This document shows, in pieces, positions 4,745 to 25,788 of a stretch of DNA of 36,690 nucleotides. Numbering within the stretch: position 1 is the first letter of the stretch; every line of letters starts with the position of its first letter. The DNA is taken from assembly GCA_902788995.1 (NCBI GenBank), contig CADAMO010000009.1:1-36690 (forward strand), in the 5' to 3' direction. Below the pieces are notes generated by a model, which was given only the letters and a program-made list of their open reading frames with translations, ran no database searches and was not told the origin of the DNA. The position numbers and the translations under genes were made by a program. The stretch is from Oscillospiraceae bacterium (lineage in GTDB: Bacteria > Bacillota > Clostridia > Oscillospirales > Acutalibacteraceae).

Positions 4745-4900
4745 AGTCGGAAGTGGGAAGTCGGAAGCCGAACGAGGAAATGGCATTTTTCCTTTTCGGG
4801 AGACTATTGCAGTGACATTCCCTTCCCATAACGGAACGTCATTCCTTTTGCCGCCCCATTCGACAGGACTTCCGACTTCCCACTGACGACTTCCGACTTA
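4745..4900. repeat. Inverted heptad-repeat element A
   Basis: The left arm (4745-4772) is four 7-bp units: AGTCGGA, AGTGGGA, AGTCGGA and a degenerate AGCCGAA. The right arm (4869-4900) holds the complementary heptads ACTTCCG, ACTTCCC, ACTGACG, ACTTCCG. Sixteen nucleotides pair exactly between the arms. The left arm begins 2 nt after the LCP stop codon. The right arm ends 19 nt before the next start codon. The roughly 95-nt middle carries no gene. Confidence 0.8.
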
Positions 4901-4918
4901 TAAAGAAGGAGATACTTT

Positions 4919-6418
4919 ATGGAAAAGCACGCATCCCTCACCCTTGCCTCCGTCTACCGCGTGGGCAAAACGGATCCCCGGATCTTCGGCTCCTTTATCG
5001 AGCACCTGGGCAGAGCCGTTTACGGCGGCATCTATGAGCCCGGCCATCCGGCGGCGGACGCAAACGGCTTCCGCAAGGACGTGATCGGCCTGATCAAAGA
5101 ACTGAACGTCCCGCTGGTGCGCTATCCCGGCGGCAACTTCGTCTCCGGCTATAACTGGGAGGACGGAGTCGGCCCCGTGGCAAGCCGCCCGAAACGCATG
5201 GAGCTGGCCTGGGGCACCACCGAGACCAACGAGTTCGGCACGGACGAGTTCATGCGCTGGTGCAAAGAAGCGAACACCGCCCCCATGATGGCGGTGAATC
5301 TGGGCACCCGCGGCGCGGACGCCGCCCGGGAGCTGGTGGAATACTGCAACCATCCCGGCGGCACGTATCTCAGCGATAGGCGCAGGAAGAACGGCGCGGC
5401 CGATCCTTACGGCGTGAAGCTGTGGTGCCTGGGCAACGAGATGGACGGTCCCTGGCAGATGGGCCACAAGGACGCGACGGAATACGGCAAGCTTGCCAAC
5501 GAGGCCGCCAAGCTGATGAAGTGGACGGACCCCTCCATCGAGCTGGTGGCCTGCGGCTCCTCCAGCTGGGGCATGGGCACCTTCGGCGACTGGGAGCGCA
5601 CCGTGCTGGATATCGCCTGGGACAACGTGGACTATATCTCCATGCACCAGTACCACGGCAACGGCGACGATTATCTGGAAAACTTCCTTGCCAAGGGCGT
5701 GGAGACCGAAGGCTTCATCAAGAGCGTGATCGCCGCCTGCGACTTCGTGCAGGGCAAGCGCCGCAGCAAGAAACAGATCAACATCTCCTTTGACGAGTGG
5801 AACGTATGGTACCACTCCCACGGGGCGAAGTTCGAGAAGTGGTCGAAAGCCCCGCACATCCTGGAGGATATCTACGACTTCTCCGACGCGCTGGTGGTGG
5901 GCACCATGATGAACGCCATCCTGCGCCACTGCGACCGGGTGAAGATCGCCTGCCTCGCCCAGCTGGTCAACGTGATCGCCCCCATTATGACGGAAGACGG
6001 CGGCCGCGCCTGGCGGCAGACCATTTTCTGGCCCTTCTATTATGCCTCGCAATACGGCAGGGGCTACGCGCTGGAGGGCATTTACGATGCCAGCACCTAC
6101 GACACCAAGTGGTATGCCGACGTGCCGGACGTGGACAGCGCCGCGGTACTCTCCGAGGACGGCAGCCGCCTGACGGTGTTCGCCGTCAACCGCGACCTGA
6201 AGGACAGCGTTCCCTTTACGCTGAAGCTGCTGGATTTCGACGGCTTCACCCCCGTGATATACAAAGCGTTGGAGGGCTTCGCCCCCGACGATATCAACAC
6301 CGCCGACTGCGAGAAGGTGGCCCCCTGCGACAAAGCGCTGCCCGCCATTGAGGACAGGCGCGCCGTTATCGACCTCTCCCCCATGTCCTGGAATATGCTC
6401 GTGTTTGAAAAACGCTGA
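4919..6418 (+). CDS. Intracellular alpha-L-arabinofuranosidase, GH51
   Basis: This enzyme removes terminal arabinofuranosyl units from arabino-oligosaccharides. It is about 499 residues, the normal size for GH51, and has no signal peptide, so it should act on imported oligomers in the cytoplasm. The general acid/base is Glu174 in WCLGNEMDGPWQ. The nucleophile is Glu293 in SFDEWNVWY. The N-terminal GSFIEHLGRAVYGGIYEP and the RYPGGNFVSGYNWEDG segment are family signatures. The C-terminal 130 residues form the beta-sandwich domain. AAGGAG lies 7 nt before the ATG. No transporter or regulator for arabinan lies next to it, so it appears to be a stand-alone gene. Confidence 0.95.
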   Translation: MEKHASLTLASVYRVGKTDPRIFGSFIEHLGRAVYGGIYEPGHPAADANGFRKDVIGLIKELNVPLVRYPGGNFVSGYNWEDGVGPVASRPKRMELAWGTTETNEFGTDEFMRWCKEANTAPMMAVNLGTRGADAARELVEYCNHPGGTYLSDRRRKNGAADPYGVKLWCLGNEMDGPWQMGHKDATEYGKLANEAAKLMKWTDPSIELVACGSSSWGMGTFGDWERTVLDIAWDNVDYISMHQYHGNGDDYLENFLAKGVETEGFIKSVIAACDFVQGKRRSKKQINISFDEWNVWYHSHGAKFEKWSKAPHILEDIYDFSDALVVGTMMNAILRHCDRVKIACLAQLVNVIAPIMTEDGGRAWRQTIFWPFYYASQYGRGYALEGIYDASTYDTKWYADVPDVDSAAVLSEDGSRLTVFAVNRDLKDSVPFTLKLLDFDGFTPVIYKALEGFAPDDINTADCEKVAPCDKALPAIEDRRAVIDLSPMSWNMLVFEKR

Positions 6419-6437
6419 CCAAACGGCAGACTCGGAC

Positions 6438-6466
6438 TTGATTTTTTCCGGAATGGTGTGTATAAT
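6438..6466 (+). promoter_or_regulatory. Promoter of the alcohol dehydrogenase gene
   Basis: TTGATT (6438-6443) and a consensus TATAAT (6461-6466) are separated by 17 nt, followed by AAGGAG and the ATG at 6500. Confidence 0.75.
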
Positions 6467-6499
6467 GTAAAAAATTGAAGAAAAGGAGAAGCAAAACGT

Positions 6500-7708
6500 A
6501 TGTCATTCCTGTTCAAAGCGTATTGCAGGGCGTATCAGAAGACGCTGAAGCTGGCGATGAACTTTCTGGACTGGTCCGAGCCGGAGCTGATCCAGGGCGC
6601 CGGCGCGGTCAAGCGTCTGCCCGCCGCGGTCAAAGCCAAGAACGTAAACAACGTGCTGGTGGTGACGGACAAGGGTCTGACCGGTCTGCATTTGCTGGAC
6701 GGCCTGTATGAGAGCCTTGACGCGCAGGGCGTGAAATACACCGTTTACGACGGCGTACAGCCTAATCCCACCATCGACAACATCGAGACGGCGGTGGAGC
6801 TTTACAAGGACAATCACTGCAACGGCATCATCGCCTTCGGCGGCGGTTCCCCCATGGATTGCGCCAAGGCCTGCGGCGCCCGCATCGTGCGGCCGAAGAA
6901 ATCAGTGCCCGAGCTGCGCGGCCAGCTGAAGGTCCTCAAGAAGCTGCCGCCCCTGTTCGCGGTGCCCACCACCGCCGGCACCGGCAGTGAGACCACCATC
7001 GCCGCGGTGGTTTCCAACCCCGTGACCCATGAAAAGAACGCCATCAACGACCCGCGTCTGCGCCCGATGATGGCCGTGCTGGATCCCGAGCTGACCGTCG
7101 GCCTGCCGCCGAAGATCACCTCCACCACCGGTATGGACGCCCTCACCCACGCGGTGGAGGCCTACATCGGCCACTCCAACACCAAAACGACCCGCCGGGC
7201 CGCCGAGACCGCCACAAAGCTGATCGGCGAGAACCTGCTGACCGCCTATGAGGACGGCAAGAACATCCAGGCCAGAGGCAACATGCTGGAGGCCTCTTAT
7301 CTCGCCGGCATCGCCTTCACGAGAGCCTACGTGGGCTATGTCCATTCCATCGCCCACAACCTCGGGGGCATGTACGGCACCCCCCACGGCCTTGCCAACG
7401 CCGTGATCCTGCCCTACGTGCTGGACTACTACGGCAAGACCGCCTGGAAGCCGCTGGCCAGGCTGGCGAAGATCTCAGGCTTCGTGTCCGCCGAAGGCAC
7501 CAATGAAGAGATCGCCAACCGCTTCATCGCCCGCATCCGCGAAATGAACGCTGCCATGAACATCCCGGAGAAGTTCGACTTCATCAAGGAAGAGGACGTC
7601 CCGCTGCTCGCTCAGCGCGCCCTGAAGGAGGGCAATCCTCTCTACCCCGTGCCGAAGATCATGGATCAGGCCGACTGCGAAGCGGTCATCCGCCGACTGA
7701 TGGCGTAA
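6500..7708 (+). CDS. Iron-containing alcohol dehydrogenase
   Basis: This is a group III (Fe-dependent) NAD(P)-linked alcohol dehydrogenase of 402 residues. The cofactor loop GGGSPMDCAKA is at about 114-124, followed by PTTAGTGSE at 156-164. Metal-site residues are visible as Asp213 and His217 in GMDALTHAVEA, with further histidines in VHSIAHNLGG and PHGLANA. The first 20 residues are a short non-family extension; AAGGAG lies 11 nt before the first ATG, and the later in-frame ATG at residue 20 has no better site. The substrate cannot be read from sequence; butanol, 1,3-propanediol and lactaldehyde enzymes share these motifs. It has its own promoter and terminator, so it is monocistronic. Confidence 0.9.
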   Translation: MSFLFKAYCRAYQKTLKLAMNFLDWSEPELIQGAGAVKRLPAAVKAKNVNNVLVVTDKGLTGLHLLDGLYESLDAQGVKYTVYDGVQPNPTIDNIETAVELYKDNHCNGIIAFGGGSPMDCAKACGARIVRPKKSVPELRGQLKVLKKLPPLFAVPTTAGTGSETTIAAVVSNPVTHEKNAINDPRLRPMMAVLDPELTVGLPPKITSTTGMDALTHAVEAYIGHSNTKTTRRAAETATKLIGENLLTAYEDGKNIQARGNMLEASYLAGIAFTRAYVGYVHSIAHNLGGMYGTPHGLANAVILPYVLDYYGKTAWKPLARLAKISGFVSAEGTNEEIANRFIARIREMNAAMNIPEKFDFIKEEDVPLLAQRALKEGNPLYPVPKIMDQADCEAVIRRLMA

Positions 7709-7751
7709 GAACCTACGCATTTTCAAAGCATGACTTTGTTCATAAGAATGT

Positions 7752-7782
7752 GGCGCCGCTGTTGCAACAGCGGCGCCTTTTT
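7752..7782 (+). terminator. Rho-independent terminator after the alcohol dehydrogenase
   Basis: A perfect 26-nt palindrome (7752-7777, starting GGCGCCGCTGTTG) is followed by TTTTT. It sits between two convergent genes; the T-tract favours termination of plus-strand transcription. Confidence 0.9.
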
Positions 7783-7811
7783 ACTTTGCGGAATAACAAG
7801 AACATGTCGGC

Positions 7812-9920
7812 TCATCCGTCAACACGTCTGACCCAGTTCTGCTGGAAGTAACTGTACCAGGTCGCCGTACCATATCGAGTCCCGAAGTTAATTTTTACGT
7901 TTTTGTAAACCTTGTCGTTATACAAAGCCATTTCTGCCCTTTTTGCGGAAAGGTCCACATAATAATCATAGCCTGCGAGATCAGACGGCATGACGTTGCT
8001 TCTTGTCAATATAATCGGTTCATTAGAGGGGGAATCCGTATAAATATATACCATTGCAGCTTCTGCATTGCCGCAGCGCCAATAAATCCTGTCATTTTCA
8101 TACAGACAGGATGCGTCAACCACAAAAAACTCCGTCGTCGAGGTCTTTCTGTCCACACCACGCATTACAACCTTGTAAGCGCCGGGGATCAGCCCGTTTT
8201 CCGGGTCTCCCATCACGAAGTCCTTGACGGTTGAGCGGGTTTCCAGCAACTCATAATCTCTGTCCGACCGTTCATAATCAATGGGATGCACACTGTCTCG
8301 ATATACCTGAATTGCGTAATAATCCTCCTTGTTCAGCACGTTGATCGTCACTTCCCGTTCAAACGCGGCGGCGGAACCGTTGCCTCCCATCAGTACCGCC
8401 TTATCTCCGAACTCACACATGATATCGGGGTAATCGATCGGTTCGACGGCTTCGCCTTCCTTGGCGACAACATAGGGAGACGGTTCATACGGTACACGGG
8501 AAACGCCTTTGTACCGGTAAAAATCATAATTTCCCTTTTCAAGCAATGCCACAAAATCCTCATACGTTACCATGGCAGTCGTAACAAGAGGATAAACGGC
8601 ATGGGTATATGTTACGGCATGAACGACGCCGAATTCATCCCGATAGATATCCGTAATCAGCATTACGTGTTGAGGGCTGATAAGGAGATCACCGACTTCC
8701 ATATTATCAAGCGATTTTTCGTAAGTTGCGTTGCAACGTGAACTGTTCAGATACTGCGACGGCAAAAACCAGGGAAATCCATTGGCGTAATCCGCAAAGG
8801 CGGAGCACACGGTTCCATAAAATGTTCTTGCATTAGGAGACCCCATGCAACGCGTATAAAGAACCGACCTGGGATTATTGACCGCTGTCAGAAACGTATA
8901 TAACGACACGTTCTGCCCTATCATTTTATCAGTTGACCGAACGGAAGAGTAAGGCAGACCTATTATTTTCATTGGTTTTCCATCCGCATCTGTTCCGGGA
9001 ATGATCCCTTCTTCCGTCTGGGCAGGTAAATCGCCGTGCAATTCATATTGAATTGACGCAAACTGACGAGCCCTCGCCAAAAGATTGGCAAGTCCCGGAT
9101 CGGTGTTCTTCTCCGCGTCGCTGAAAACAAAACGCAGGTCCTCCGGCGTATCCGCATGCATCTGCCGGTACAAATCGAGCTCTTCCGCAGGGGAAACACT
9201 AAAAGCCTCACGGAGAATCTGTTCCGTCAGCTCCTGACGGTTGGTTTTTACCGATTCCTGCACAAAAGCGACTGTAATACGGATCGCTTCACAGTCCTCG
9301 GAAAAACGGTAGAGATACCTGTCCCCACGCCGCAGAAGAAATTTTCTGCGCAGCAGGTTGTCCGACCCGATTTCCGGATATTCAAAAACATACGCAACCA
9401 GAATACTGTCGTCATATGCTTCCAGGCCGGAATAAAAGAAATCTCCGATTTCGTTCCGGGAGATGTAATCCGTACCGGCGACATATTCATAATCCACCCC
9501 TTTGATGCTGAGCGGAGTCGATTCATCATCTGTTTTTCTGAATTTGCCGGTTCTTGAAATGCCCAGCCCGATCTGAAAGCGGTCATAGATATCAATTTTT
9601 GTCAGTTGCGGCGGTACCTCTGCCATGGCGTCGCTTACCGTTGCATCCCCCGCGAAAGTCACCCCATTCGCATCCTGACTGCCATTATCCGCAGTGATTT
9701 CTTCCGGTTGACCCGTATTGCCCGGAATGGCCCCGATCTCTGTCTCTGCTGCCGTCTGCGCAACCGTGCTATCCAACACCGACAATCCCTCTCCGCTCTT
9801 TTCAAGATCGATCTCATGGAACAAATCAAACCGACAGCCGGACATAAAAACGCACAACGAAAGCACAACAGACGTCAGTATTACATAAATAAGTTTTAAT
9901 TTAATTCTCAACCGGAACAT
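7812..9920 (-). CDS. Putative lipoprotein with papain-like (NlpC/P60-type) core
   Basis: The predicted product is 702 residues. Residues 1-29 form a lipoprotein signal peptide (basic MFRLRIKLKL, hydrophobic core, lipobox MSGC with Cys29), so it should be anchored on the outer face of the membrane. Around 365-445 there is a pattern like a papain-fold cysteine peptidase: Cys372 in FYGTVCSAFADYANG, then GDLLISPQHVMLI with His418, then VTYTHA. This resembles NlpC/P60 or CHAP enzymes that cut peptidoglycan peptides, but the similarity is weak. The last 200 residues look beta-rich and may be a binding domain. The ATG at 9920 has GGGAG 7 nt upstream. Base composition is clearly more AT-rich than its neighbours, which suggests transfer. 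Confidence 0.6.
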   Translation of the reverse strand: MFRLRIKLKLIYVILTSVVLSLCVFMSGCRFDLFHEIDLEKSGEGLSVLDSTVAQTAAETEIGAIPGNTGQPEEITADNGSQDANGVTFAGDATVSDAMAEVPPQLTKIDIYDRFQIGLGISRTGKFRKTDDESTPLSIKGVDYEYVAGTDYISRNEIGDFFYSGLEAYDDSILVAYVFEYPEIGSDNLLRRKFLLRRGDRYLYRFSEDCEAIRITVAFVQESVKTNRQELTEQILREAFSVSPAEELDLYRQMHADTPEDLRFVFSDAEKNTDPGLANLLARARQFASIQYELHGDLPAQTEEGIIPGTDADGKPMKIIGLPYSSVRSTDKMIGQNVSLYTFLTAVNNPRSVLYTRCMGSPNARTFYGTVCSAFADYANGFPWFLPSQYLNSSRCNATYEKSLDNMEVGDLLISPQHVMLITDIYRDEFGVVHAVTYTHAVYPLVTTAMVTYEDFVALLEKGNYDFYRYKGVSRVPYEPSPYVVAKEGEAVEPIDYPDIMCEFGDKAVLMGGNGSAAAFEREVTINVLNKEDYYAIQVYRDSVHPIDYERSDRDYELLETRSTVKDFVMGDPENGLIPGAYKVVMRGVDRKTSTTEFFVVDASCLYENDRIYWRCGNAEAAMVYIYTDSPSNEPIILTRSNVMPSDLAGYDYYVDLSAKRAEMALYNDKVYKNVKINFGTRYGTATWYSYFQQNWVRRVDG

Positions 9921-10035
9921 TATCATTCTCCCTATGGAATCCAAGAACCAACAATAACAACAAAAGGCCATCTCAATATTGACACATCGGGGAATGGCAC
10001 TCCATTTTATTCTTCCGATCCCGATTTTCTGACTT

Positions 10036-10064
10036 ATTATATCTCATTTCAATTCCCCCGTCAA
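10036..10064 (-). promoter_or_regulatory. Promoter of the lipoprotein gene
   Basis: On the minus strand TTGACG (10064-10059), 17 nt, then TATAAT (10041-10036). This is near-consensus. The leader is about 110 nt and can form a small AATGG/CCATT hairpin. Confidence 0.8.
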
Positions 10065-10087
10065 GTATATTTTATTTATTCTTTTTA

Positions 10088-10116
10088 TTGATTTAATAAA
10101 AGTCTTGTGATATAAT
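10088..10116 (+). promoter_or_regulatory. Promoter of the Gfo/Idh/MocA gene
   Basis: TTGATT (10088-10093), 17 nt, then TATAAT (10111-10116), followed by AAAGGAG and the ATG at 10146. It is divergent from and close to the lipoprotein promoter. Confidence 0.8.
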
Positions 10117-10145
10117 GGACCATATTAAAATAAAGGAGTGTTGGT

Positions 10146-11309
10146 ATGTCAGATAAATTAAAGCTCGGCATCATCGGCGTCGGCAACATGGGTTCCAGCC
10201 ATCTGCGCGACTTTACCAAAGGGAATTGGCCGGAGATTGAAGTGACCTGCGTCGCGGATATCGACGAAAAAAGATTGGAATACGCCCAGGAACAGGTCCC
10301 CGGCGTCAAGTGCTTCGGCACCGCCACGGAGCTGATCCACAGCGGCCTGTGCGAGGCGGTCATCATCGCCACGCCCCACTACTTCCATCCCCCCATCGCC
10401 ATCGAGGCGCTGCAGGCGGGCCTGCACGTCATGAGCGAAAAGCCCGCCGGCGTTTACACCAAGCAGGTGCGCGAGCTGATCGAAGTATCCAAGACCACCG
10501 ACAAGACCTACGCCATCATGTTCAACCAGCGGACCAACTGCGTGTACCGCAAGGTGAAGGAACTGATCGACAGCGGCAAATACGGCGAGATCAGACGCGT
10601 CAGCTGGATCATCACCGACTGGTACCGCACCCAGGCCTATTATAATTCCGGCGGATGGCGCGCCACGTGGGCCGGCGAAGGCGGCGGCGTGATGCTGAAC
10701 CAGTGCCCTCACCAGCTGGACCTGTGGCAGTGGCTGTGCGGCATGCCCAGCAAGATCAAGGCGATCTGCCACGAGGGCAAATGGCACGACATTGAGGTGG
10801 AGGACGACGTTTCCATCTACGCAGAATACCCCAACGGCGCCACCGGCACCTTCATCACCACCACCGGCGACTGCCCCGGCACGAACCGGCTGGAGATCAC
10901 CCTGGACGGCGCGAAGATCCTGGTGGACGACGCCGCGAAGATCACCCTCTACGAACTGGAAAAGCCCCTCTCCGAGCATATATACAGCGCTCAGGGCGGA
11001 TTTGACCGCGACCACGTCACCGTCAAAGAGGTGGAAACCGACGGCAAGAACGAGCAGCACGTGGGCGTAATGAACGCCTTTGCTTCCCACATTCTGCACG
11101 GCACGCCGCTGGTGGCGGAGGGTGCCGAGGGCATCAACGGCCTGACCATCTCCAACGCCGCGTTCCTCTCCAGCTGGCTGGACGAAACCGTTACGCTTCC
11201 CATCGACGAGGACCTCTACTATGAGAAGCTGCAGGAGAAGATCAAAAACTCCACTTACAAAAAAGTCGTCGTGGAGCAGGTACAGGCGGATATGAGCTCT
11301 ACCTTTTAA
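10146..11309 (+). CDS. Gfo/Idh/MocA family NAD(P)-dependent oxidoreductase
   Basis: This 387-residue cytoplasmic dehydrogenase probably acts on a sugar, inositol or a sugar derivative. The N-terminal Rossmann fold has GIIGVGNMGSSH at 8-19. The catalytic lysine lies in EKPAG at 98-102. The second domain has the motif GGGVMLNQCPHQLDLW, with His189 and Asp192 in the positions used for substrate binding. Length matches the family. AAAGGAG lies 8 nt before the ATG. Neighbours give no sugar pathway, so the substrate is unknown. The gene ends exactly where heptad element B begins. Confidence 0.9.
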   Translation: MSDKLKLGIIGVGNMGSSHLRDFTKGNWPEIEVTCVADIDEKRLEYAQEQVPGVKCFGTATELIHSGLCEAVIIATPHYFHPPIAIEALQAGLHVMSEKPAGVYTKQVRELIEVSKTTDKTYAIMFNQRTNCVYRKVKELIDSGKYGEIRRVSWIITDWYRTQAYYNSGGWRATWAGEGGGVMLNQCPHQLDLWQWLCGMPSKIKAICHEGKWHDIEVEDDVSIYAEYPNGATGTFITTTGDCPGTNRLEITLDGAKILVDDAAKITLYELEKPLSEHIYSAQGGFDRDHVTVKEVETDGKNEQHVGVMNAFASHILHGTPLVAEGAEGINGLTISNAAFLSSWLDETVTLPIDEDLYYEKLQEKIKNSTYKKVVVEQVQADMSSTF

Positions 11310-11430
11310 GGTTTGAGGTAATAGGTTTGAGGTTTGAGAATACGTTTCCAACGCAAAACTGATTGCTTTTATTCAGCTTATTTCTCACACCTCACACCTC
11401 ACACCTCACACCTCACACCTCACACCTCAA
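11310..11430. repeat. Inverted heptad-repeat element B (GGTTTGA / CTCACAC)
   Basis: The left arm (11310-11337) is four heptads: GGTTTGA, GGTAATA, GGTTTGA, GGTTTGA. It starts at the first base after the Gfo stop codon. The right arm (11384-11429) is six exact CTCACAC units plus a partial one. The arms are complementary at 6 of every 7 positions. The array ends 20 nt before the mreB start codon. The heptad sequence is unrelated to that of elements A, C and D, but the layout is the same. Confidence 0.8.
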
Positions 11431-11449
11431 AAGAAAAGGATAACAAACC

Positions 11450-12451
11450 ATGATCTTTTCACAGGATATCGGCATTGATCTGGGCACCACCAACACCGCC
11501 GTTTGCGTCAAAAGCAAGGGCGTCGTGCTGCGGGAACCCTCCGTCGTTGCCGTGGACATCAAGAACACCCCGCCCAAAGTGGTGGCCGTCGGAGAAGAGG
11601 CGAAGCTGATGGTGGGCCGGACGCCCGGCTCCATCACTGCGGTGCGCCCGGTCAAGGAGAGCATCATCGCCGACTTCAACACCACCGCCGCCATGCTGCG
11701 GGAGTTCCTGCGCAAGGCCACCAGCAGCAACGCCTCCTTCAGCCGTTCCCGGGTGCTGATCGGCATTCCCGCCAATCTGACGGAGGTGGAGCGCAAGGCC
11801 GTTCACGACGCGGCAAAAACGGCGGGCGCCCGGTACGTCAGCCTGATCGACGCCTCCATGGCCGCCGCCATCGGCGCGGGATTGCGGGTCTCGGAACCCA
11901 CCGGGAGCATGATCGTGGATATCGGCGGCGGCGCGGCGGAGGTCGCAGTGATCTCCCTGGGCGACATCGTCGCCTCCCGCGCCATCAAGACCGCCGGAGA
12001 CGCCTTTGACGAGGCCATCGCCCAGTACGTCAGGCGCACCTTCAACCTGCTGATCGGCGAACGCACCGCGGAAGAGATCAAGCTGGCGATCGGCTCCGCC
12101 CTTCCCTATGAGGGCGAAGCGGCCATGAACATCAAGGGCAGAAGCCTTTCCGACGGGCTGCCCCATGAGGTGGAGATCACCTCCGCCAACGTCAGGGAAG
12201 CCCTGACGGAGCCCGTCAACCGGATCATCGAAATGATCCGCACCACGCTGGAAAAGACCCCGCCGGAGCTGGCGGGCGACATTATGGACGCGGGCATCAC
12301 CCTGACGGGCGGCAGCGTACTGCTGCGAGGCCTTGACAAGCTGATCGCCACCTCCACCGGCATTCCCGTGCGCATCGCGGCCAAGCCGCTGGACTGCGTC
12401 GTCACCGGCATCGCCATCTGCCTGCAAAAGAACACTTTGAACCTGAGATAA
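11450..12451 (+). CDS. mreB: Rod-shape-determining actin homologue MreB
   Basis: MreB forms membrane-associated filaments that guide lateral-wall synthesis. The 333-residue product has the actin-fold phosphate-1 motif IGIDLGTTNTAVC at 8-20, phosphate-2 motif IVDIGGGAAEVAVIS near 159-173, and the adenosine motif ITLTGGSVLLRGLD near 284-297. Length matches the family. The start follows AAAGGA at 7-9 nt. Its stop codon overlaps the mreC start by one base (TAATG), so mreB and mreC are translationally coupled. Standard order mreB-mreC-mreD-PBP follows. Confidence 0.97.
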   Translation: MIFSQDIGIDLGTTNTAVCVKSKGVVLREPSVVAVDIKNTPPKVVAVGEEAKLMVGRTPGSITAVRPVKESIIADFNTTAAMLREFLRKATSSNASFSRSRVLIGIPANLTEVERKAVHDAAKTAGARYVSLIDASMAAAIGAGLRVSEPTGSMIVDIGGGAAEVAVISLGDIVASRAIKTAGDAFDEAIAQYVRRTFNLLIGERTAEEIKLAIGSALPYEGEAAMNIKGRSLSDGLPHEVEITSANVREALTEPVNRIIEMIRTTLEKTPPELAGDIMDAGITLTGGSVLLRGLDKLIATSTGIPVRIAAKPLDCVVTGIAICLQKNTLNLR

Positions 12452-13293
12452 TGATGAGAAGCTTTTTTCACGGAAAAATCTTCAGGATCCTGCTCTGCGT
12501 CTGCGCCGCGCTGCTGCTGGGGATCTTTGCCGCTGCTGTCTCCGACAGCGGCGCGAACCCCGTTTCCGCCGTCGTCGGCTTTCTGACCCAGCCGCTGGAA
12601 AAAGCCGCGGCGGGGCTGGCGGAAAAGACGGCGCAGTTCTGCGACCGGTTCCGCTCCGCATCCTTTTACAAAGAGCAGGCGGAGCAGCTCCGGGAGACGG
12701 TGGCCTCTTACCGGGAGGAGCTGGTGGACTATGAAAATCTCAAATACAAGCTGGACGCCTACGAACGTTTTCTGGAGGTCAGGCAAAACAATCCCGATTA
12801 CGGCTATCTGCCCGCCTCGGTGATCTCCAGAGACGCCAACGACGTCTACGGCACCTTCACCATCAACGTGGGCGTCAACGACGGGGTTGAGCTCAACGAC
12901 CCTGTGATCTACGGCAAAACGCTGGTAGGCGTGATCCGCGCCGCGGGTGAGACCACCAGCACGGTCTATACGCTTCTCAATCCCGAGGTCAGCGTCGGCG
13001 CGTATGAGATCCGCACGCGCGAGGACTGCTACGTGGAGGCGGAAAACGCCCTTTCGCTGAAGGGCCTGCTGCGGCTCTCCGGGCTTGCCAAAACCACGCC
13101 CATCGTCCCCGGCGGCATCGTCTGCACCTCCGGCACGGGCGGCGTCTTCCCCCGGGATTTCATCATCGGCACTGTGACGGACGTTCACACGGACAACACC
13201 TCCGTTGCGGCCTACGCCACCGTCGAACCGGACGTCGCTCCGGCGACGCTGACGGACGTTTTCGTCATCACGTCTTTCGAAGGGAAGGAATAA
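12451..13293 (+). CDS. mreC: Rod-shape-determining protein MreC
   Basis: MreC is a membrane-anchored extracytoplasmic scaffold of the elongasome. The 280-residue product has one N-terminal membrane helix (about 10-32), a coiled-coil-like stretch (about 65-105, with EQAEQLRETVASYREEL), and the beta-barrel domain with VISRDANDVYGTFTINVG and GKTLVGVI segments. Length and order are typical. Two adjacent methionines begin the frame; either could be used. Confidence 0.95.
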   Translation: MMRSFFHGKIFRILLCVCAALLLGIFAAAVSDSGANPVSAVVGFLTQPLEKAAAGLAEKTAQFCDRFRSASFYKEQAEQLRETVASYREELVDYENLKYKLDAYERFLEVRQNNPDYGYLPASVISRDANDVYGTFTINVGVNDGVELNDPVIYGKTLVGVIRAAGETTSTVYTLLNPEVSVGAYEIRTREDCYVEAENALSLKGLLRLSGLAKTTPIVPGGIVCTSGTGGVFPRDFIIGTVTDVHTDNTSVAAYATVEPDVAPATLTDVFVITSFEGKE

Positions 13294-13369
13294 GCCTTTC
13301 CCCTTCCGCCGCCGCACGCGGCCGAATCCCCATCAAAAAAACAACACAAAAAAAGGAGGCGACGCGTAC

Positions 13370-13891
13370 ATGCATCGCGGCAACCGATACGTTAAAGGCG
13401 CTGTACTCGCCGCCCTGATCCTGTTCACGGCGCTGATGCAGAACTCCTTTCTGCCGGCCTTCGGCGCGCGCCATACGGCGTGGCTGCTGACGGCGCTGAT
13501 CACCGCCGTCGCCATGCACGAGCCGGAGCTGAACGCCGCCGGGTACGCGCTGCTGGCAGGCGTGCTCTGGGACGTGACCTCTCCCCTGCCGGACGGAACG
13601 ATCACCCTCTTCCTGACGGTCTGCGCCTGCGCCTGCAGCCTGTTGGCCCGCTGCCTGTTCCGGCGGACGATGCTGACGGCCATCGTCTTCTGCGTGGGGT
13701 GCAACACCCTGTTCTGCATTCTGACGCTGGCCTTTCAATACGCCGTCAAGGATTTTTCCGCGCTGCCCGGCGTAGTGCTGCAGCGCTTTCTGCCGTCTTT
13801 TCTGTTGACGGTTCCCGCCCTGCCCGCGTTTTATCTGCTGATCAGGGCCGTTGAAAAACACTTGAGCGTCAAGGCAGGGACAACGATATGA
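13370..13891 (+). CDS. mreD: Rod-shape-determining protein MreD
   Basis: MreD is the small polytopic membrane partner of MreC and PBP2. The 173 residues are almost entirely hydrophobic, with about five predicted helices and a conserved-looking AGVLWDVTSPLPDGT segment, which corresponds to the G-x-x-x-D motif of the family. AAGGAGG lies about 10 nt before the ATG. The 76-nt gap after mreC shows nothing beyond this site. Its last codon overlaps the PBP start by 4 nt. Confidence 0.9.
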   Translation: MHRGNRYVKGAVLAALILFTALMQNSFLPAFGARHTAWLLTALITAVAMHEPELNAAGYALLAGVLWDVTSPLPDGTITLFLTVCACACSLLARCLFRRTMLTAIVFCVGCNTLFCILTLAFQYAVKDFSALPGVVLQRFLPSFLLTVPALPAFYLLIRAVEKHLSVKAGTTI

Positions 13892-16008
13892 AACTACACA
13901 GACTGAACCGGCGCGTGCTGCTGATCGCGCTGCTCTTCACAGCGGTCACACTCTTCTTCTTCGTTCTGATCGGCTACGATATGACCGCCGCGGAGGGGAC
14001 CGCCGTCAGCGCCGAGGCCGGAAAAACCTATACCGTTTCCGTGGAGGGCACCCGCGGGGACATCCTCGACGTCAACGGCAATTACCTCGTCTACAACCAA
14101 TCGGTCAACGTGCTCACCTTCGACTATCTCGAATTCCCCACGGAGCAGCAGGACCGCAACGTCCTGATCGACCGGCTGATCCACTGTCTGGCGTCCCGGA
14201 ACGAGACCTGGCTGGATCCGCTGCCCCTGGAATTTGACGAGACGGGCACGCTGCGCTTCAAGGACAAGCAGGCGACGGAGATTCGCCGGCTGAAATCCGC
14301 CGATTTTCTGGACGTGAACGACTACGCCACACCCCAGAACTGTCTCGACGTGCTGTGCGAGCAATACGGACTGGAATCCTACGATCCCGTCACGGCGCTG
14401 CAGATCGCTTCCGTCTGCTACGGTATGCAGAAAGAAGGTTTTTCCGCCTACCGCCCCTATACCTTCGCGGAGGACGTGTCCATCGAGACCGTCTCCTATA
14501 TCAAAGAAAACAGTTACATGTTCCGCGGCGTTGACGGCGACGTCACCTCCAAGCGGAAATATATCGGCGACGGCTCCATCGCCGCCCACATTCTCGGCAT
14601 GACGGGCTCCATCAGCGCCGAGGAATATAACGAACAGAAGGAAAAGACCGACGAGGCCCTGGCCGCGCCGGACCTGACGGAAGATCAGGCGCAGAAGATC
14701 AAGGCCCGCAGCTACACCTTCAACGACACAATCGGGAAGAGCGGCATCGAGGCCGTGATGGAGGAGTACCTGCGGGGGGAACGCGGTCAGAAGATCGTCT
14801 CCGTCAACAAGGACGGTTCCTCCGACGTCAGCTACGCCTATCCCCCGTCCCAGGGGAACACGGTCATACTGACCATCGACCAGCACCTGCAGGAGATCGC
14901 CGACGCCTCGCTGAAAAAGAGGATCCTTGAGATCTCCGAAGAACAGGCGGAATCCATCGCCAAAGGACTGACCCCCGCCGGCGCAGTGGTGGTGCAGGAC
15001 GTGAATACCGGCGCCGTGCTGGCGGCCTCCTCTTATCCCAATTACTCGCTGACGACCTACTACGACGACTATAACGAGCTGGCGCAGGACCCCGGCAAGC
15101 CGCTGTGGAACAGGGCTTTCCAGAGCGCCTATTCCCCCGGCTCCACCATGAAGCCGGTCATTGCCATCGCCGCGCTGGAGGAAGGCGCCATCGGTCTCAA
15201 CGAAGGGATCTACTGCTCGGGCACCTATCAGTATTACGACATCACCTTTGCCTGCTTCAACAACACCGAACACGGCTACGTCACCGTGGAAACGGCGCTG
15301 GAACACTCCTGCAACATCTTCTTCTACGAAATGGCCAAGCGGCTGGGCATCGACAAGATGAATAAATACGCCACGCTGTTCGGTCTGGGAGAAAAGACGG
15401 GGCTGGAGGTCAACGAGGCGAAAGGCATTCTGGCCGGCCCCAAACGCCGCGACGAGTTAGGCCTGCGCTGGCAGAGCGGTGAAACGCTGCTGGCCGCCAT
15501 CGGCCAGTCTGATAACTCCTTCACCCCCATCCAGCTGTGCAACTACGTGGCCACCATCGCCAACGGCGGCACCCGCTACGTGCCCTATCTGGTGGAACGC
15601 GTCACCTCCGCAGATCTGACGAAAACGCTCTATGAGCACAAGCCGAAGGTGGCCGTCAATACCAACATCGCGGAAAGTACGCTGCAAGCGGTGCGGTACG
15701 GCATGTATCTGGTGGCCAACGAAGGCTCCTGCGCCGATACGCTGGGGGACCTGGCCTACACCGTGGCCTGCAAAACCGGCACCGCCGAAAAGACCCGTAT
15801 CATTGACGGCAACATCGTGGAAGGCACCGACGGTTTCCTCATCACCTTCGGCCCCTATGAAGACGCAAAGATCGCCATCACCGTGGTGGTGGAAAACGCC
15901 GGCAGCGGCTCCTCCACCGCGCAGGTGGCCGCCGACATCTACGACTACTATTTCTCAACGCTGAACAACGACAATACGCTGCAGAAGCAGAATACGCTTC
16001 TGTGGTGA
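13888..16008 (+). CDS. Elongation-specific penicillin-binding protein 2 (class B)
   Basis: This transpeptidase cross-links peptidoglycan during lateral growth as part of the elongasome. The 706-residue product has an N-terminal membrane anchor (about 10-30), the pedestal domain with TRGDILDVNGNYLVYN, and the transpeptidase domain with all three active-site motifs: Ser419 in SPGSTMK, SCN at 474-476, and KTG at 629-631. The ATG overlaps the end of mreD. The usual partner rodA is not in this window. Annotated in other species as pbpA, mrdA or spoVD-like; the mre context favours the PBP2 role. Confidence 0.93.
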   Translation: MKLHRLNRRVLLIALLFTAVTLFFFVLIGYDMTAAEGTAVSAEAGKTYTVSVEGTRGDILDVNGNYLVYNQSVNVLTFDYLEFPTEQQDRNVLIDRLIHCLASRNETWLDPLPLEFDETGTLRFKDKQATEIRRLKSADFLDVNDYATPQNCLDVLCEQYGLESYDPVTALQIASVCYGMQKEGFSAYRPYTFAEDVSIETVSYIKENSYMFRGVDGDVTSKRKYIGDGSIAAHILGMTGSISAEEYNEQKEKTDEALAAPDLTEDQAQKIKARSYTFNDTIGKSGIEAVMEEYLRGERGQKIVSVNKDGSSDVSYAYPPSQGNTVILTIDQHLQEIADASLKKRILEISEEQAESIAKGLTPAGAVVVQDVNTGAVLAASSYPNYSLTTYYDDYNELAQDPGKPLWNRAFQSAYSPGSTMKPVIAIAALEEGAIGLNEGIYCSGTYQYYDITFACFNNTEHGYVTVETALEHSCNIFFYEMAKRLGIDKMNKYATLFGLGEKTGLEVNEAKGILAGPKRRDELGLRWQSGETLLAAIGQSDNSFTPIQLCNYVATIANGGTRYVPYLVERVTSADLTKTLYEHKPKVAVNTNIAESTLQAVRYGMYLVANEGSCADTLGDLAYTVACKTGTAEKTRIIDGNIVEGTDGFLITFGPYEDAKIAITVVVENAGSGSSTAQVAADIYDYYFSTLNNDNTLQKQNTLLW

Positions 16009-16024
16009 GCGCGGCAAGCCGCGC

Positions 16025-16184
16025 AGTCGCCAGTCGCCAGTCGTAAGTCGCCAGAAGCCCTCCGGGCGCTCCCATGGAAACAGCGCCTCCATCAAAAACA
16101 GGACTTCCGACTTCCGACTTCCGACTGATGACTTCCGACTTTCATTCTTACGACTTACGACTTACGACTCACGACTTACGACTG
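16025..16184. repeat. Inverted heptad-repeat element C
   Basis: The left arm (16025-16052) is AGTCGCC, AGTCGCC, AGTCGTA, AGTCGCC. The right side has two blocks: 16103-16141 (ACTTCCG x3, ACTGATG, ACTTCCG) and 16148-16184 (ACGACTT x2, ACGACTC, ACGACTT, ACGACTG). The array ends 18 nt before the minD start. After the left arm, AGAAGCCCTCCGGGCG forms a 4-bp hairpin that recurs with a compensatory change in element D. Translated, the right arm gives a repetitive false N-terminus for minD. Confidence 0.85.
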
Positions 16185-16202
16185 AAGAAAGGGGGTCCCG
16201 CC

Positions 16203-16937
16203 ATGACAAGAAGCATCCTGATCGCCTCCGGGAAGGGAGGCGTCGGCAAATCCACCGTCGCATCGCGTCTGGGCAGGATTTTGTCCGCGCAGGGAAAAAA
16301 GATCCTGCTGGTGGACTGCGACGCGGGCCTTTCCTCGCTGGACGTGATGCTGGGCCTGTCGGAGGACGTGGCCTTCAACTGGTATGACGCCTATACCGGC
16401 CGCTGTGAGATTGAAGAAGCGGTCATTCACAACGAAAACGGCCCGGACCTGCTGCCTGCCCCCCGCATGCCGCTGGAAGAAGCAGCACACGACGCCGTCA
16501 GGCAGGCGGTGGAAGCGTTGGCGGACGACTACGATATCGTGCTGATCGACGCGCCGGCGGGACTTTCCGCCGGGCTGGAACGGGCGGCGGCCGCCGCCAA
16601 AAAGGCCATCGTCGTGGCCACGGCGGACGATATCTCCGTCCGGGGCGCCGCCGCGCTGGCGGAGCTGGTGCGGAACCGGGGCGTGGAACAGTGCCGTCTG
16701 CTCATCAACCGCTACGATATCCTGGCGGCAAAGAAGGGAAAGCTGCTGACGGTGGACGAGCTCATCGACCGGACCTGCGTCCGCCTGCTGGGTATCATCC
16801 CGGAAGACCCCGCCATCACCTACAGCACCGTCACCGGGGCGTACAGCCCGAAGAGCAAAAGCGCCGCAGCCTTCCGCCGGATCGCCTTCCGCATCGAAGG
16901 ACAGAACGTACCGCTGAAGCTGAAGCAGCTCAGATAG
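16203..16937 (+). CDS. minD: MinD-family septum-site ATPase
   Basis: MinD recruits the division inhibitor MinC to the membrane. The 244-residue product has the deviant Walker A motif GKGGVGKST at 10-18, the Walker A-prime segment LLVDCDAGLSSLDVMLGL, and VLIDAPAGLSAGLERA as Walker B. The ATG at 16203 follows AAAGGGGG; longer in-frame reading upstream is repeat sequence. The C-terminus ends RRIAFRIEGQNVPLKLKQLR and could form a short amphipathic helix, but less clearly than in standard MinD. No minC or minE is adjacent, although both usually are in Clostridia. A FlhG-like or other MinD-family role cannot be excluded. Confidence 0.85.
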   Translation: MTRSILIASGKGGVGKSTVASRLGRILSAQGKKILLVDCDAGLSSLDVMLGLSEDVAFNWYDAYTGRCEIEEAVIHNENGPDLLPAPRMPLEEAAHDAVRQAVEALADDYDIVLIDAPAGLSAGLERAAAAAKKAIVVATADDISVRGAAALAELVRNRGVEQCRLLINRYDILAAKKGKLLTVDELIDRTCVRLLGIIPEDPAITYSTVTGAYSPKSKSAAAFRRIAFRIEGQNVPLKLKQLR

Positions 16938-17015
16938 ACGGTTCCCGGAGCCGTCGATCCATCCGATATATTTCATTTGGAGATATATAAAAAGGGAGAA
17001 AAAGGGAGAAGAAAC

Positions 17016-17411
17016 ATGAACATTGCCTTGATCGCACACGATTCCAAAAAAGAACTGATGACTCAGTTCTGCATCGCCTACTGCGGCATTCTGAGCCATC
17101 ATTCCCTCTGCGCCACCGGCACAACCGGCAAGCAGGTGGAGGCCGCCACAGGACTGCCGATCACCAAATTCCTCGGCGGCGCCCAGGGCGGCGCCCAGCA
17201 GATCGGCGCGCTGATCTCCTGCAACGAGATCGACCTGCTGCTGTTTTTCCGCAACCCGCTGAACCCCAAGCCCTACGAGCCCAACGACCACGACCTGCTG
17301 CGGCTGTGCGACATGCACAACATCCCCGTGGCCACCAACATCGCCACCGCCGAATCGCTGGTACGCGGCCTCGAACGCGGCGACCTCGACTGGCGTGCGC
17401 TGGTAAAATGA
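17016..17411 (+). CDS. Methylglyoxal synthase homologue lacking catalytic residues
   Basis: The 131-residue product aligns along its length with MgsA, which converts dihydroxyacetone phosphate to methylglyoxal. The start IALIAHD, the phosphate-binding CATGTTGKQ, and NIPVATNIATAE near the C-terminus are all conserved. The catalytic positions are not. Against E. coli MgsA, Asp71 is Ala60 (in GGAQQIGALI), Asp91 is Asn80, His98 is Tyr87 and Asp101 is Asn90. I expect a phosphate-ligand-binding protein without synthase activity. The position after the mre/PBP/min block matches that of mgsA in many Clostridia, so it is probably the orthologue rather than a transferred gene. The ATG at 17016 follows GGGAG. 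Confidence 0.85.
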   Translation: MNIALIAHDSKKELMTQFCIAYCGILSHHSLCATGTTGKQVEAATGLPITKFLGGAQGGAQQIGALISCNEIDLLLFFRNPLNPKPYEPNDHDLLRLCDMHNIPVATNIATAESLVRGLERGDLDWRALVK

Positions 17412-17436
17412 AAGCTTTTGCCTACAAAAGCTTTCA
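17409..17436 (+). other. Perfect stem-loop at the mgsA-like stop codon
   Basis: TGAAAGCTTTTG (17409-17420) and CAAAAGCTTTCA (17425-17436) form a 12-bp perfect stem with a CCTA loop. The stem contains the TGA stop codon. There is no T-tract afterwards, so it may protect or process RNA ends rather than terminate. Confidence 0.6.
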
Positions 17437-17612
17437 GTCGCAAGTCGTAAGTCGTGAGTCGCAAGAAGTCCTCCGGACGTTCCTGATGGATAGATGAACA
17501 GAGACTTCCGGCTCCTCTTATCTCGGAACTGAGGCTCCGTGCTGCGACTTACAACTTACGACTTACGACTTACGACTTACGACTTACGACTTACGACTTA
17601 CGACTTACGACT
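17436..17612. repeat. Inverted heptad-repeat element D (long ACGACTT array)
   Basis: The left arm (17436-17463) is AGTCGCA, AGTCGTA, AGTCGTG, AGTCGCA. The right arm (17544-17612) is GCGACTT, ACAACTT, then seven exact ACGACTT units and a partial one. The right arm ends 28 nt before the hisS start. AGAAGTCCTCCGGACG after the left arm is homologous to the hairpin in element C. This is the largest perfect tandem array in the window. Confidence 0.87.
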
Positions 17613-20764: not shown

Positions 20765-20775
20765 AATGACAAAAG

Positions 20776-20879
20776 CGTAGCACGGCGCCTCGCGCCGCTA
20801 ATCGACCGGGAATGAATCTTTTTTCAACGTTTTGATTATTGTTTATGCCCGGTTTAACGGCGCAAGGCGCCGTGCTACG
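20776..20879. repeat. REP/BIME-like inverted pair E
   Basis: The left arm (20776-20810) begins CGTAGCACGGCGCCTCGCGC. The right arm (20848-20879) is its reverse complement with two substitutions and a 3-nt gap. Each arm is GTAG followed by its own hairpin (CGGCGC-CTC-GCGCCG). The pair starts 12 nt after the aspS stop and ends 26 nt before the next start codon. Confidence 0.8.
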
Positions 20880-20905
20880 TAAATTTCCATCAGGAGACAT
20901 TTGAT

Positions 20906-23746: not shown

Positions 23747-25411
<1,665 letters not shown>

Positions 25412-25412
25412 T

Positions 25413-25465
25413 GTAGCACGGCACCTTGCGCCGTTTCAGTCGGAAGTCATCAGTCGGAAGTCGGA
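25413..25465. repeat. Composite half-element: REP-like unit joined to a heptad left arm
   Basis: GTAGCACGGCACCTTGCGCC starts at 25413, 2 nt after the groEL stop, and matches the REP-like arms seen at 20776. It is followed at 25438-25465 by four heptads: AGTCGGA, AGTCATC, AGTCGGA, AGTCGGA. This 28-nt block is the exact reverse complement of a stretch of the right arm of element C. No complementary right arm is found nearby. Confidence 0.75.
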
Positions 25466-25523
25466 TGCCACATAGGACGACCGGTTCCGGAATGACAATC
25501 GCATCATCATAACAGCAAAACAA

Positions 25524-25565
25524 CACCCCGGATGTTCGGAACACCGTTCATCTGGGGTGATTTTT
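25524..25565 (+). terminator. groEL terminator
   Basis: CACCCCGGATG (25524-25534) pairs with CATCTGGGGTG (25549-25559), with one G-T pair, and is followed by TTTTT after one base. On the other strand the stem is followed by a T-rich stretch, so it may also serve the convergent fumarase operon. Confidence 0.85.
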
Positions 25566-25628
25566 CTGCTTTATCAGGGAAAAAATGTAAAATGAGGCAA
25601 TCAGCATTTGTGCGGTCTTTTGCCCATG

Positions 25629-25781
25629 CGGTAGCGCGGCACCTCAGTGCCGCTATTCACAAAAGCTACATTTCGGAAACCTGAAATGCAGTTCATTCCT
25701 TTTCAATCCCATATAGCAAAACTTTTTACGATGCCAAAAAGTTGTTTGTCCTACGAGCGGCACTGAGGTGCCGCGCTACCG
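25629..25781. repeat. REP/BIME-like inverted pair with perfect 26-bp arms
   Basis: The arms 25629-25654 and 25756-25781 are exact reverse complements over 26 bp. Each reads GTAG followed by a hairpin (CGGCAC-CTCA-GTGCCG). The 101-nt interior is AT-richer and folds into two further hairpins: CATTTC/GAAATG at 25669-25688 and AACTTTTT/AAAAAGTT at 25720-25743. There is no open reading frame inside. Confidence 0.85.
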
Positions 25782-25788
25782 ACTCGTA

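Follow-up and report, generated by a model that had tools for sequence, protein, structure and literature searches.

How do several spacers of one bacterial contig come to hold inverted arrays of seven-nucleotide units that share a plan while their sequences differ? The question is raised by a 36,690-nt stretch of DNA from an Oscillospiraceae bacterium (contig CADAMO010000009.1, positions 1 to 36,690; hereafter the window), which is contig C9 of a 3.38-Mb assembly of 299 contigs, 92.7% complete (the source genome, G000). A preliminary description had pointed to four junctions at which a left arm of tandem heptads, close behind a stop codon, faces a complementary right arm close before the next start codon. 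We recovered this plan at all four: left arms overlap the stop codon or start 2, 16 or 24 nt past it, and right arms end 19, 20, 19 and 28 nt before the start codon. As argued below, these junctions are probably occupied by short mobile elements, non-autonomous and foldback-like in build, that persist chiefly in the space from a stop codon to the ribosome site that follows.

Period-7 arrays in the source genome and beyond

The arrays might have been rare, or an assembly artefact of one contig; they are neither. In the source genome the pattern AGTCGNNAGTCGNNAGTCG has 97 + 75 matches and the reversed-pattern control 0; the pattern recurs in three relatives, 98 + 78 times in G152, 152 + 113 times in G153 and 31 + 18 times in G179 (assembly completeness is 69% for G152 and 58% for G179). 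No closer relative than G153 was found: its MGS-domain protein (hereafter MGS) is 91% identical and its matched window DNA 70-88% identical. AGTCG arrays are present in 4 of 25 genomes of the genus (G000, G152, G153 and G179) and, in a family sample of 150, in G000 and G073 only, the latter an array-rich genome of another genus. The array-free status of congeners rests on the AGTCG pattern and on one 9-20 kb stretch each; in one AGTCG-free congener, G159, the reversed control (GCTGANN x3) matched 16 + 12 times, perhaps through a heptad family of its own.

The period is specific. In a first sample of 400,881 bases (the window and 21 other stretches), 57 period-7 arrays covered 2267 bases, and 0-2 arrays were found for each of the periods 4, 5, 8, 10, 11, 13, 16 and 17, and 3-10 for the multiples of three (5-10 for each of those from 9 to 24). 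Because most contigs of this sample had been known in advance to carry at least one AGTCG array (the window, C1-C4, C12, C15 and C33), its array density is biased, and the comparison between periods is not. The same excess was seen in 320 kb of G153, where 18 of 20 stretches had been picked blind: 56 period-7 arrays, 1-2 for periods 4, 5, 8, 10 and 11, and 8 for period 13, the last number exceeding those of neighbouring periods. In 283 kb of G073 we counted 60 period-7 arrays, with other words, and 0-6 for the other periods tested.

A wider scan returned at least 119 stretches bearing AGTCG x4, and the 80 record titles among the matches listed span many phyla. These stretches carry at least 201 further period-7 arrays, versus 1-27 for periods 4-6 and 8-14. 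Four whole units are the commonest size (80 of 224 arrays), and 45 of 115 neighbouring pairs are inverted matches (null 19%), 28 being direct ones. A Clostridia metagenome-assembled genome from goat omasum (L143) has the same type of element: its arms consist of AGTCG heptads, and its left arm adjoins a perfect hairpin. AATKCGG x4 was found in 15 IMG/VR stretches, where some arrays stand, by eye, directly before a ribosome site. Counts given from here on come from a larger sample, 984 kb of the source genome (29% of it, including 19 stretches chosen for their arrays) and 720 kb of G153.

Dispersed copies and gain in lineages

Similar elements lie at unrelated places. For the element at L050 19136-19291, G153 has matches at two unrelated places (L222 and L225), of 88% over about 155 nt; for that at L063 5176-5342 it has a match at L225, of 89% over 168 nt. 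When cores were compared with one another, one cluster of 17 elements emerged (11 from the source genome, 6 from G153), all AGTCG-armed. Alignment of 21 elements of one family, A1, with 60-nt flanks gave a likeness of 0.87-0.96 in the arms and 0.90 in a box, AAGCCCTTCGGGCGTTCCTG, falling to about 0.6 in the middle and to 0.41-0.59 in the flanks; since the copies had been picked by their arms and most of the box, the independent part of this result is confined to the fall in likeness at the edges and to two motifs not used in the selection, GTTCCTG and AACAACT. Among 27 AGTCGT-armed pairs taken without A1 selection, loose patterns detected a box-like motif in 20, an AACAACT-like motif at the other end in 13, and both in 11.

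Comparison of 86 orthologous adjacent junctions of the source genome and G153 showed arrays in both at 10, in the source genome only at 5, in G153 only at 11 and in neither at 60 (odds ratio 10.9, p 1.5e-4). At 7 of the 10 shared junctions the heptads differ: LytR/AraF (AGTCGGA here vs AGAGCGG in G153), GFO/MreB (AGGTTTG vs AGTCGTA), MGS/HisS (AGTCGTA vs AGTGGCT), C3 9734, C32 3658, C11 5112 and C11 7331. At the other three (PBP/MinD, C3 7233 and C36 4811) both species have AGTCG-type arrays, and those at PBP/MinD and C3 7233 look orthologous.

More distant congeners have short spacers at these places. Between the MGS gene and hisS, 13 other congeners have a spacer of 20-92 nt in which no array was seen; the arrayed spacer of the source genome measures 229 nt and that of G153 155 nt. 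The PBP2/MinD spacer is 12-116 nt in 8 congeners, of which G159 and G162 show weak A-rich period-7 signals, and mreB and mreC, which overlap by 1 nt here, have a small heptad palindrome between them in G153. Short array-free spacers in congeners, together with junctions arrayed in both sisters, indicate that elements were gained in lineages and that some junctions were reused, by permissiveness or by insertion preference. The active generating or copying process proposed in the preliminary description is borne out by these observations, the arrays being numerous, mostly confined to spacers, alike at unrelated places, unlike in their heptads at 7 of the 10 shared junctions, and not seen at MGS/hisS of 13 congeners. 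Intra-operon spacers have been lengthened in this clade, as the MGS/hisS figures illustrate, and the elements may therefore change how the mRNAs of core operons (mreB, minD-like, hisS) fold.

Matched arms and modular cores

Several families of arms coexist, with heptads such as AGTCGTA, AGTCGGA, AGTCGCC, AGGTTTG/AGGTGTG, AGTTAAA/AGTTGAA, AATGCGG/AATTCGG, AGGCAAT, AGAGCGG, AGATGAA, AGCAATT and AGTGGCT, among others. Arm length peaks at 30-32 nt, that is four heptads plus 2-4 nt (75 of 165 arms in the source genome). In the source genome, a length of 29-33 nt was measured for 57 of 90 arms in pairs and for 30 of 75 single ones; in G153 the figures are 19 of 36 and 35 of 70. The second heptad often departs from the rest, as seen by eye in many arms, its frequency being uncounted: AGTCGTA AGTCGTG AGTCGTA AGTCGTA AG, AGTCGGA AGTCATC AGTCGGA AGTCGGA AGTC and AGGTTTG AGGTGAT AGGTTTG AGGTTTG AG are examples. 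Neighbouring arms are matched: an inverted match (distance at most 2) was found for 49 of 60 neighbours in the source genome, 20 of 31 in G153 and 12 of 25 in G073, where 16-19% is expected by the null. The gap between arms is mostly 61-120 nt (31 of 49 pairs in the source genome; at most 25 nt in 3 of 49), the structured core mostly 26-120 nt, and the end-to-end length 87-329 bp in 58 of 64 inverted pairs of the two species.

Homologous cores carry unlike words. Among 74 cores compared with their arms trimmed off (E<1e-3), 15 of 123 distinct core-core matches join heptads differing at 3 or more of 7 positions; 13 elements of two genera stand behind them (5 from the source genome, 1 from G153 and 7 from G073). 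The core CGGAAGGGCTTCGCCCTTACCCATT..TGCCGGCCGCAGGCCC wears AGATGAA, AGTTRAA and AGCAATT arms, heptads adjoining 9 of 10 copies of its left half, and the GGGACACCC core of G073 wears AATTCGG, AGTGAAT, AATGAAT, CAGTTTT and CAGTCGG arms. The arm of a second family, A2, is retained with many different cores, its exact 32-nt word order being kept at several sites. Since cores occur with unlike words and the A2 arm on many cores, arms and cores have partly separate histories; the A1 core was seen with AGTCG arms only.

Apart from these, a common outer palindrome, GGGATTTGTCG .. CGACAAATCCC, encloses heptad elements of different families (L069 4645, L063 5186, L068 7515 and L057 5237). The longest arrays reach 225 nt, and mosaics of several heptads occur. 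At L065 4610-4834, AGATGAA, AGTCGGA and AGTCGTA units are followed, (nearly) contiguously, by reversed AGTGGTT and AGGCAAT types; at L047 3272-3481, AGAGCGG, AGTCGCC and AATGCGG units are likewise (nearly) contiguous. The idea that arms form a three-frame stop-codon cassette was rejected: of 23 distinct heptads of the source genome, 12 contain stop codons when read inward and 4 when read outward, and shuffling gave 11.9 ± 2.0, so the excess is one of composition.

Placement and edge hairpins

Arrays are not randomly located, contrary to what the preliminary description had named as a reason to doubt them. Only 11 of 165 lie inside coding sequence in the source genome, and 6 of 106 in G153, where coding coverage is 81% and 84%. 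Per kb of spacer, density is 0.29 (source genome) and 0.23 (G153) between divergent genes, 0.67 and 0.94 between co-directional genes, and 0.95 and 1.44 between convergent ones. Stop codons lie at most 5 nt from an array edge in 29 of 104 cases here and 24 of 81 in G153; for start codons the figures are 1 of 84 and 3 of 57. This placement fits random arrival followed by loss of insertions from genes, promoters and ribosome sites; targeting of stop codons is unnecessary. At L267 14411-15796, the final codons of a MATE transporter gene run into a heptad arm, its C-terminus being partly array-encoded.

Frequently a hairpin abuts the outer edge of an arm. With a stem score of at least 7 and a distance of at most 3 nt, this was seen for 34 of 158 AGTCG- and AGGT-type arms, 27 of them exactly at 0 or +1; controls gave 1-3 at positions 25-150 nt outward and 58 at 2000 random intergenic places. 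Some edge hairpins start within the gene and include its stop codon. Stems of at least 8 starting in coding sequence were found at 6 of 79 gene ends with an array vs 1 of 406 without in the source genome (p 1e-4), and at 4 of 62 vs 4 of 297 in G153 (p 0.03), where one stem among the matches listed is the array itself. By eye, hairpins of this sort are missing from the MGS stop codon in the congeners G161 and G166. Edge hairpins may be targets of the elements or their products. A hairpin series of another kind, with a constant GTGATAT linker and stems that are unlike within the series and between species, was noted at L060 (about 400-640) and in its G153 orthologue.

The junctions of the window

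The first junction, J1 (4745-4899), lies between the stop codon of a LytR-CpsA-Psr gene (4742) and the ATG of an arabinofuranosidase gene (4919). Its AGTCGGA-type arms occupy 4745..4779 on the + strand (35 nt, 2 nt past the stop) and 4867..4899 on the - strand (33 nt, 19 nt short of the ATG). J2 (11309-11429) precedes mreB (11450): the left arm (11309..11338, +), AGGTTTG AGGTAAT AGGTTTG AGGTTTG AG, overlaps a TAA stop and is divergent in its second heptad, and the right arm (11384..11429, -), AGGTGTG x6.6, ends 20 nt short of mreB.

J3 (16025-16183) opens 16 nt past the stop codon with a left arm of four AGTCGCC/AGTCGTA heptads plus AG (16025..16054, +), at the start of which an edge hairpin, GCGCGGC-AA-GCCGCGC (16009..16024), exactly ends. 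A sub-terminal box, AGAAGCCCTCCGGGCGCTCC (16053..16072, +), forms a small hairpin of the A1 family. The right side consists of two stacked arrays, an AGTCGGA-type one of the A2 family (16102..16141, -) and an AGTCGTA-type one (16147..16183, -) 19 nt short of the minD-like ATG at 16203; a similar double array is present at the same junction in G153. J4 (17436-17612), starting 24 nt past the stop codon, is preceded by a perfect edge hairpin, TGAAAGCTTTTG-CCTA-CAAAAGCTTTCA (17409..17436), whose 5' half opens with the stop codon of the MGS gene and whose 3' end abuts the left arm (17436..17465, +; AGTCGNN x4). Its sub-terminal box, AAGTCCTCCGGACGTTCCTG (17466..17485, +), has a stem pair altered on both sides relative to the GCCC..GGGC copies, and its right arm, AGTCGTA x9.7 (17545..17612, -), ends 28 nt short of hisS.

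A few details of the preliminary description need amending. The right arm is indeed the longer one at J2 and J4 but not at J1. Three AGTCGNN junctions and one of another type are present as described, but J3 is a stack of two families, and a fifth, one-armed and decayed relic, AGTCGGA-type with the A2 second word AGTCATC, lies at 25436..25466 (+), after a Cpn60 gene and behind a GTAG-footed hairpin resembling repetitive extragenic palindromic (REP) sequences. The genes flanking the arrays are ordinary, encoding LytR-CpsA-Psr, arabinofuranosidase, a GFO/IDH/MocA oxidoreductase, MreB, a penicillin-binding protein, a MinD/ParA-type ATPase, MGS, HisS and Cpn60. Rfam at gathering cut-offs gave no match to a known structured RNA in the window.

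GTAG-footed REP-like hairpins in inverted pairs (GTAGCGCGGCACCTCAGTGCCGC.., GTAGCACGGCGCC..) occupy further spacers, at 25411-25800 and 20764-20905 of the window, and the AspS spacer has a REP pair here vs a heptad element in G153. In G153, an open reading frame resembling REP-associated tyrosine transposases (RAYT; Y1/HUH type) at L233 17376-17906 (contig C17) has tandem GTAGCACGCTGCC / ACGGAGCTGAGGCTCCGTGCTAC REP-like hairpins on both sides; a second Y1-like one lies at L217 11155-11763.

Search for an autonomous copy and a driver

Candidates for an autonomous element or a driver were examined and set aside. A pair of arms more than 1 kb apart on C21 encloses a MATE transporter lying between two separate elements, and between the arms of the other four such pairs the nine open reading frames are ordinary (QueG-like, hydrolases, N-acyltransferase, glycosidases, MFS, radical SAM and a weak PHP). 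The source genome encodes a reverse transcriptase (RT) at L048 5203-6411 (contig C15), of PADLOC group RT_UG26 (E 1.5e-170), with relatives in G152, G153 and, partial, G179. It was set aside as a writer of heptads, since full-length UG26 also occurs in G154, G156, G158, G159, G161, G165 and G183, which lack AGTCG arrays, and is absent from the array-rich G073, whose RT is not UG26.

If the elements are mobile, a trans-acting factor would recognise the arm, perhaps also the abutting hairpin, and would copy or insert the element. Selection would act after insertion, so that insertions would persist mostly in the interval from a stop codon to the ribosome-binding site of the following gene; such survival would account for the gene-bounded layout and for permissive junctions reused in sister species by different families.

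Several results weigh against this reading. No autonomous copy was found in the 29% of the genome sampled, where the five same-family arm pairs more than 1 kb apart enclose ordinary genes. Nor did a trans-acting factor emerge: six families were sought, and none tracks the arrays, Y1, DDE_Tnp_1, Transposase_mut, Transposase_20 and rve, scanned in 24, 14 or 11 genomes each, and RT with UG26. IS256 is absent from 14 of 14 genomes tested, DDE_Tnp_1 and Transposase_20 from G153, G179 and G073, rve from G152, G153 and G179, and Y1 (E<=1e-3) from the source assembly and from that of G179, at their respective completeness of 92.7% and 58%. No target-site duplication is obvious in the flanks, inspected by eye and without a same-species empty site. 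Among the arms of the source genome, 75 of 165 are unpaired, and unlike arms on a single core are atypical of ordinary terminal repeats. Once junctions with spacers shorter than 80 nt in both genomes are dropped from the comparison, the counts become 10, 5, 9 and 23 and the odds ratio falls to 5.1 (p 0.024); part of the association is therefore contributed by tight junctions that accept nothing. Finally, the edge hairpins are not independent of one another: a recurrent outer repeat with a (T)GTCG-type stem accounts for 16 of the 34, and two of the loci closely resemble each other; with these 16 removed, 18 of 158 vs 3 remain (p 0.001).

Competing explanations

The main rival to mobile elements is generation in place. 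A process working in 7-nt steps would expand an existing hairpin stem, both arms in step, by slippage and copying of one arm from the other or by staggered cutting and filling; heptads would be local words and nothing would move. The great diversity of heptads, the match between paired arms, the specificity of period 7, and the long arrays and mosaics agree with it, as do the arms that begin exactly at hairpin ends. So do stop-codon hairpins that mirror species-specific coding changes: at C36, coding differences between the two species are mirrored in the non-coding half of the hairpin, GATCTGCCGGTAAACCGGCAGATC here vs GGATTTGTCGGTAGAATACCGACAAATCC in G153. Against it stand the cores common to elements at unrelated places, the A2 arms preserving one exact 32-nt word order at several sites, and the presence of elements where congeners have only a short spacer and no array; we consider this explanation possible, if rather doubtful.

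The preliminary description had also suggested a selected function in the RNA leader. Intercistronic or leader hairpins would tune mRNA stability or translation, and would be kept for structure, not sequence. Folding is strong, with z of -6.4, -7.6, -5.7 and -7.3 for J1 to J4 and below -3 for 66 of 67 paired elements; placement between stop codon and Shine-Dalgarno sequence within operons, and reuse of the same junctions with other sequences, point the same way, as do paired changes in the box hairpin (GCCC/GGGC, GTCC/GGAC and, in L143, GACC/GGTC). Yet strong folding is expected of any inverted arms, the placement is explicable by losses elsewhere, no element was seen at MGS/hisS in 13 congeners, and convergent spacers are the richest per kb; the suggestion was not upheld, and such a function seems unlikely.

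That HUH (Y1) RAYT proteins, while moving GTAG-footed REP hairpins, also mobilise the heptad elements is very improbable: REP-like hairpins GTAGCGCGGCACCTCAGTGCCGC and GTAGCACGGCGCCTTGCGCCGTT often adjoin arrays (by eye), and G153 has two Y1-like open reading frames, one of them flanked by REP arrays, with one match each in G152 and G073, but neither the source assembly nor G179 has a Y1 match at the threshold above, the AGTCG-free congeners G155, G163, G161, G158 and G076 do have Y1 matches, and edge stems among the matches listed are mostly not of the GTAG type.

A wider reading, likewise possible but rather doubtful, is that of a general class, spread across many phyla, of foldback elements with interchangeable heptad-cassette arms. 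A system with a 7-nt unit might write or replace matched arms of about four units flanking a structured core at a hairpin base, one core receiving many words, and the heptads of Xanthomonas, Geobacter and cyanobacteria might be pieces of the same phenomenon. If this is true, heptad repeats described singly as quadruplex repeats, regulator sites or translational signals would all belong, as arms, to a single kind of element, given that words sharing no G-tract follow one and the same inverted plan. It would also raise the question of how unrelated bacteria come to build, seven nucleotides at a time, a matching pair of arms with about four units each.

Comparison with known systems

Foldback elements have inverted arms in which a short unit is directly repeated in tandem, and a core may or may not lie between the arms; the elements described here have this build. 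For Galileo, a foldback element of Drosophila, a P-type transposase is reportedly known; none was found here among the five transposase families scanned. Bacterial miniature inverted-repeat transposable elements (MITEs), REP doublets forming hairpins (REPINs) and bacterial interspersed mosaic elements (BIMEs) are short, palindromic, non-autonomous, intergenic and multicopy. As in MITEs, we found terminal inverted repeats, a size below about 600 bp, no coding capacity and dispersed similar copies. Unlike in MITEs, REPINs and BIMEs, the terminal repeats are tandem heptads and are unlike between elements with homologous cores, and no cognate transposase was found. From REPINs and BIMEs they differ further in lacking a GTAG or CGTC foot, the nearby GTAG-footed hairpins being a separate repeat, and in that the source genome has no RAYT detectable as a Y1_Tnp match at E<=1e-3, G153 having two.

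No heptad-armed element of Clostridia emerged from the literature searched by title and the start of the abstract, most subscription papers being beyond reach. The layout itself, presented in the preliminary description as undescribed in Clostridia, is already in print for Xanthomonas (PMC4692102) and, as paired opposite-strand sites, for Geobacter metallireducens (PMC2700814), according to the parts of these reports available to us. Class 1-3 sites of G. metallireducens are three to five tandem hepta- or octanucleotides, mostly in opposite-strand pairs at variable distance, interpreted as global-regulator or IHF/HU sites, with ISGme8/9 at a fixed distance from class 1 (PMC2700814). They resemble the elements studied here in their short tandem-repeat arms paired on opposite strands, but the accessible text of that paper describes no exchange of heptads. 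The TAACTGA repeats of Beggiatoaceae, in the sections at hand, occur in two to six copies, are intergenic, lie near start codons, overlap the ribosome-site position and are patchily distributed (PMC4679880). They comprise a single heptad in 169 direct-repeat sets and one indirect set, whereas many heptads in inverted pairs are found here.

The closest parallel in plan is set out in the available portion of Rehm et al. 2015 (PMC4692102), which reports 186 and 183 loci per genome of GGGAATC / GGGANTN repeats in Xanthomonas, mostly of four units, with 70 and 75 convergent inverted pairs. These repeats are 89-93% intergenic, with few between divergent genes, and lie on average 28 nt from the 5' neighbouring open reading frame and 160 nt from the next; the prominent ones sit at different genes in two species, and the authors interpret them as G-quadruplexes. 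A heptad, mostly four units, inverted pairs and a stop-proximal, intergenic position are all found here too. Unlike the one G-rich heptad type treated in that portion, there are here many heptads per genome, structured cores shared between heptads, and abutting hairpins. Most heptads, among them AGTCGTA, AGGTTTG, AGTTAAA and AATGCGG, lack GGG, and because words without G-tracts follow the same plan, a quadruplex is not its general reason. The stop-proximal, intergenic plan of inverted four-unit heptads is thus already known from Xanthomonas; new are the variety of heptads within a genome, the occurrence of unlike words on a single core, the abutment of hairpins, and words without G-tracts.

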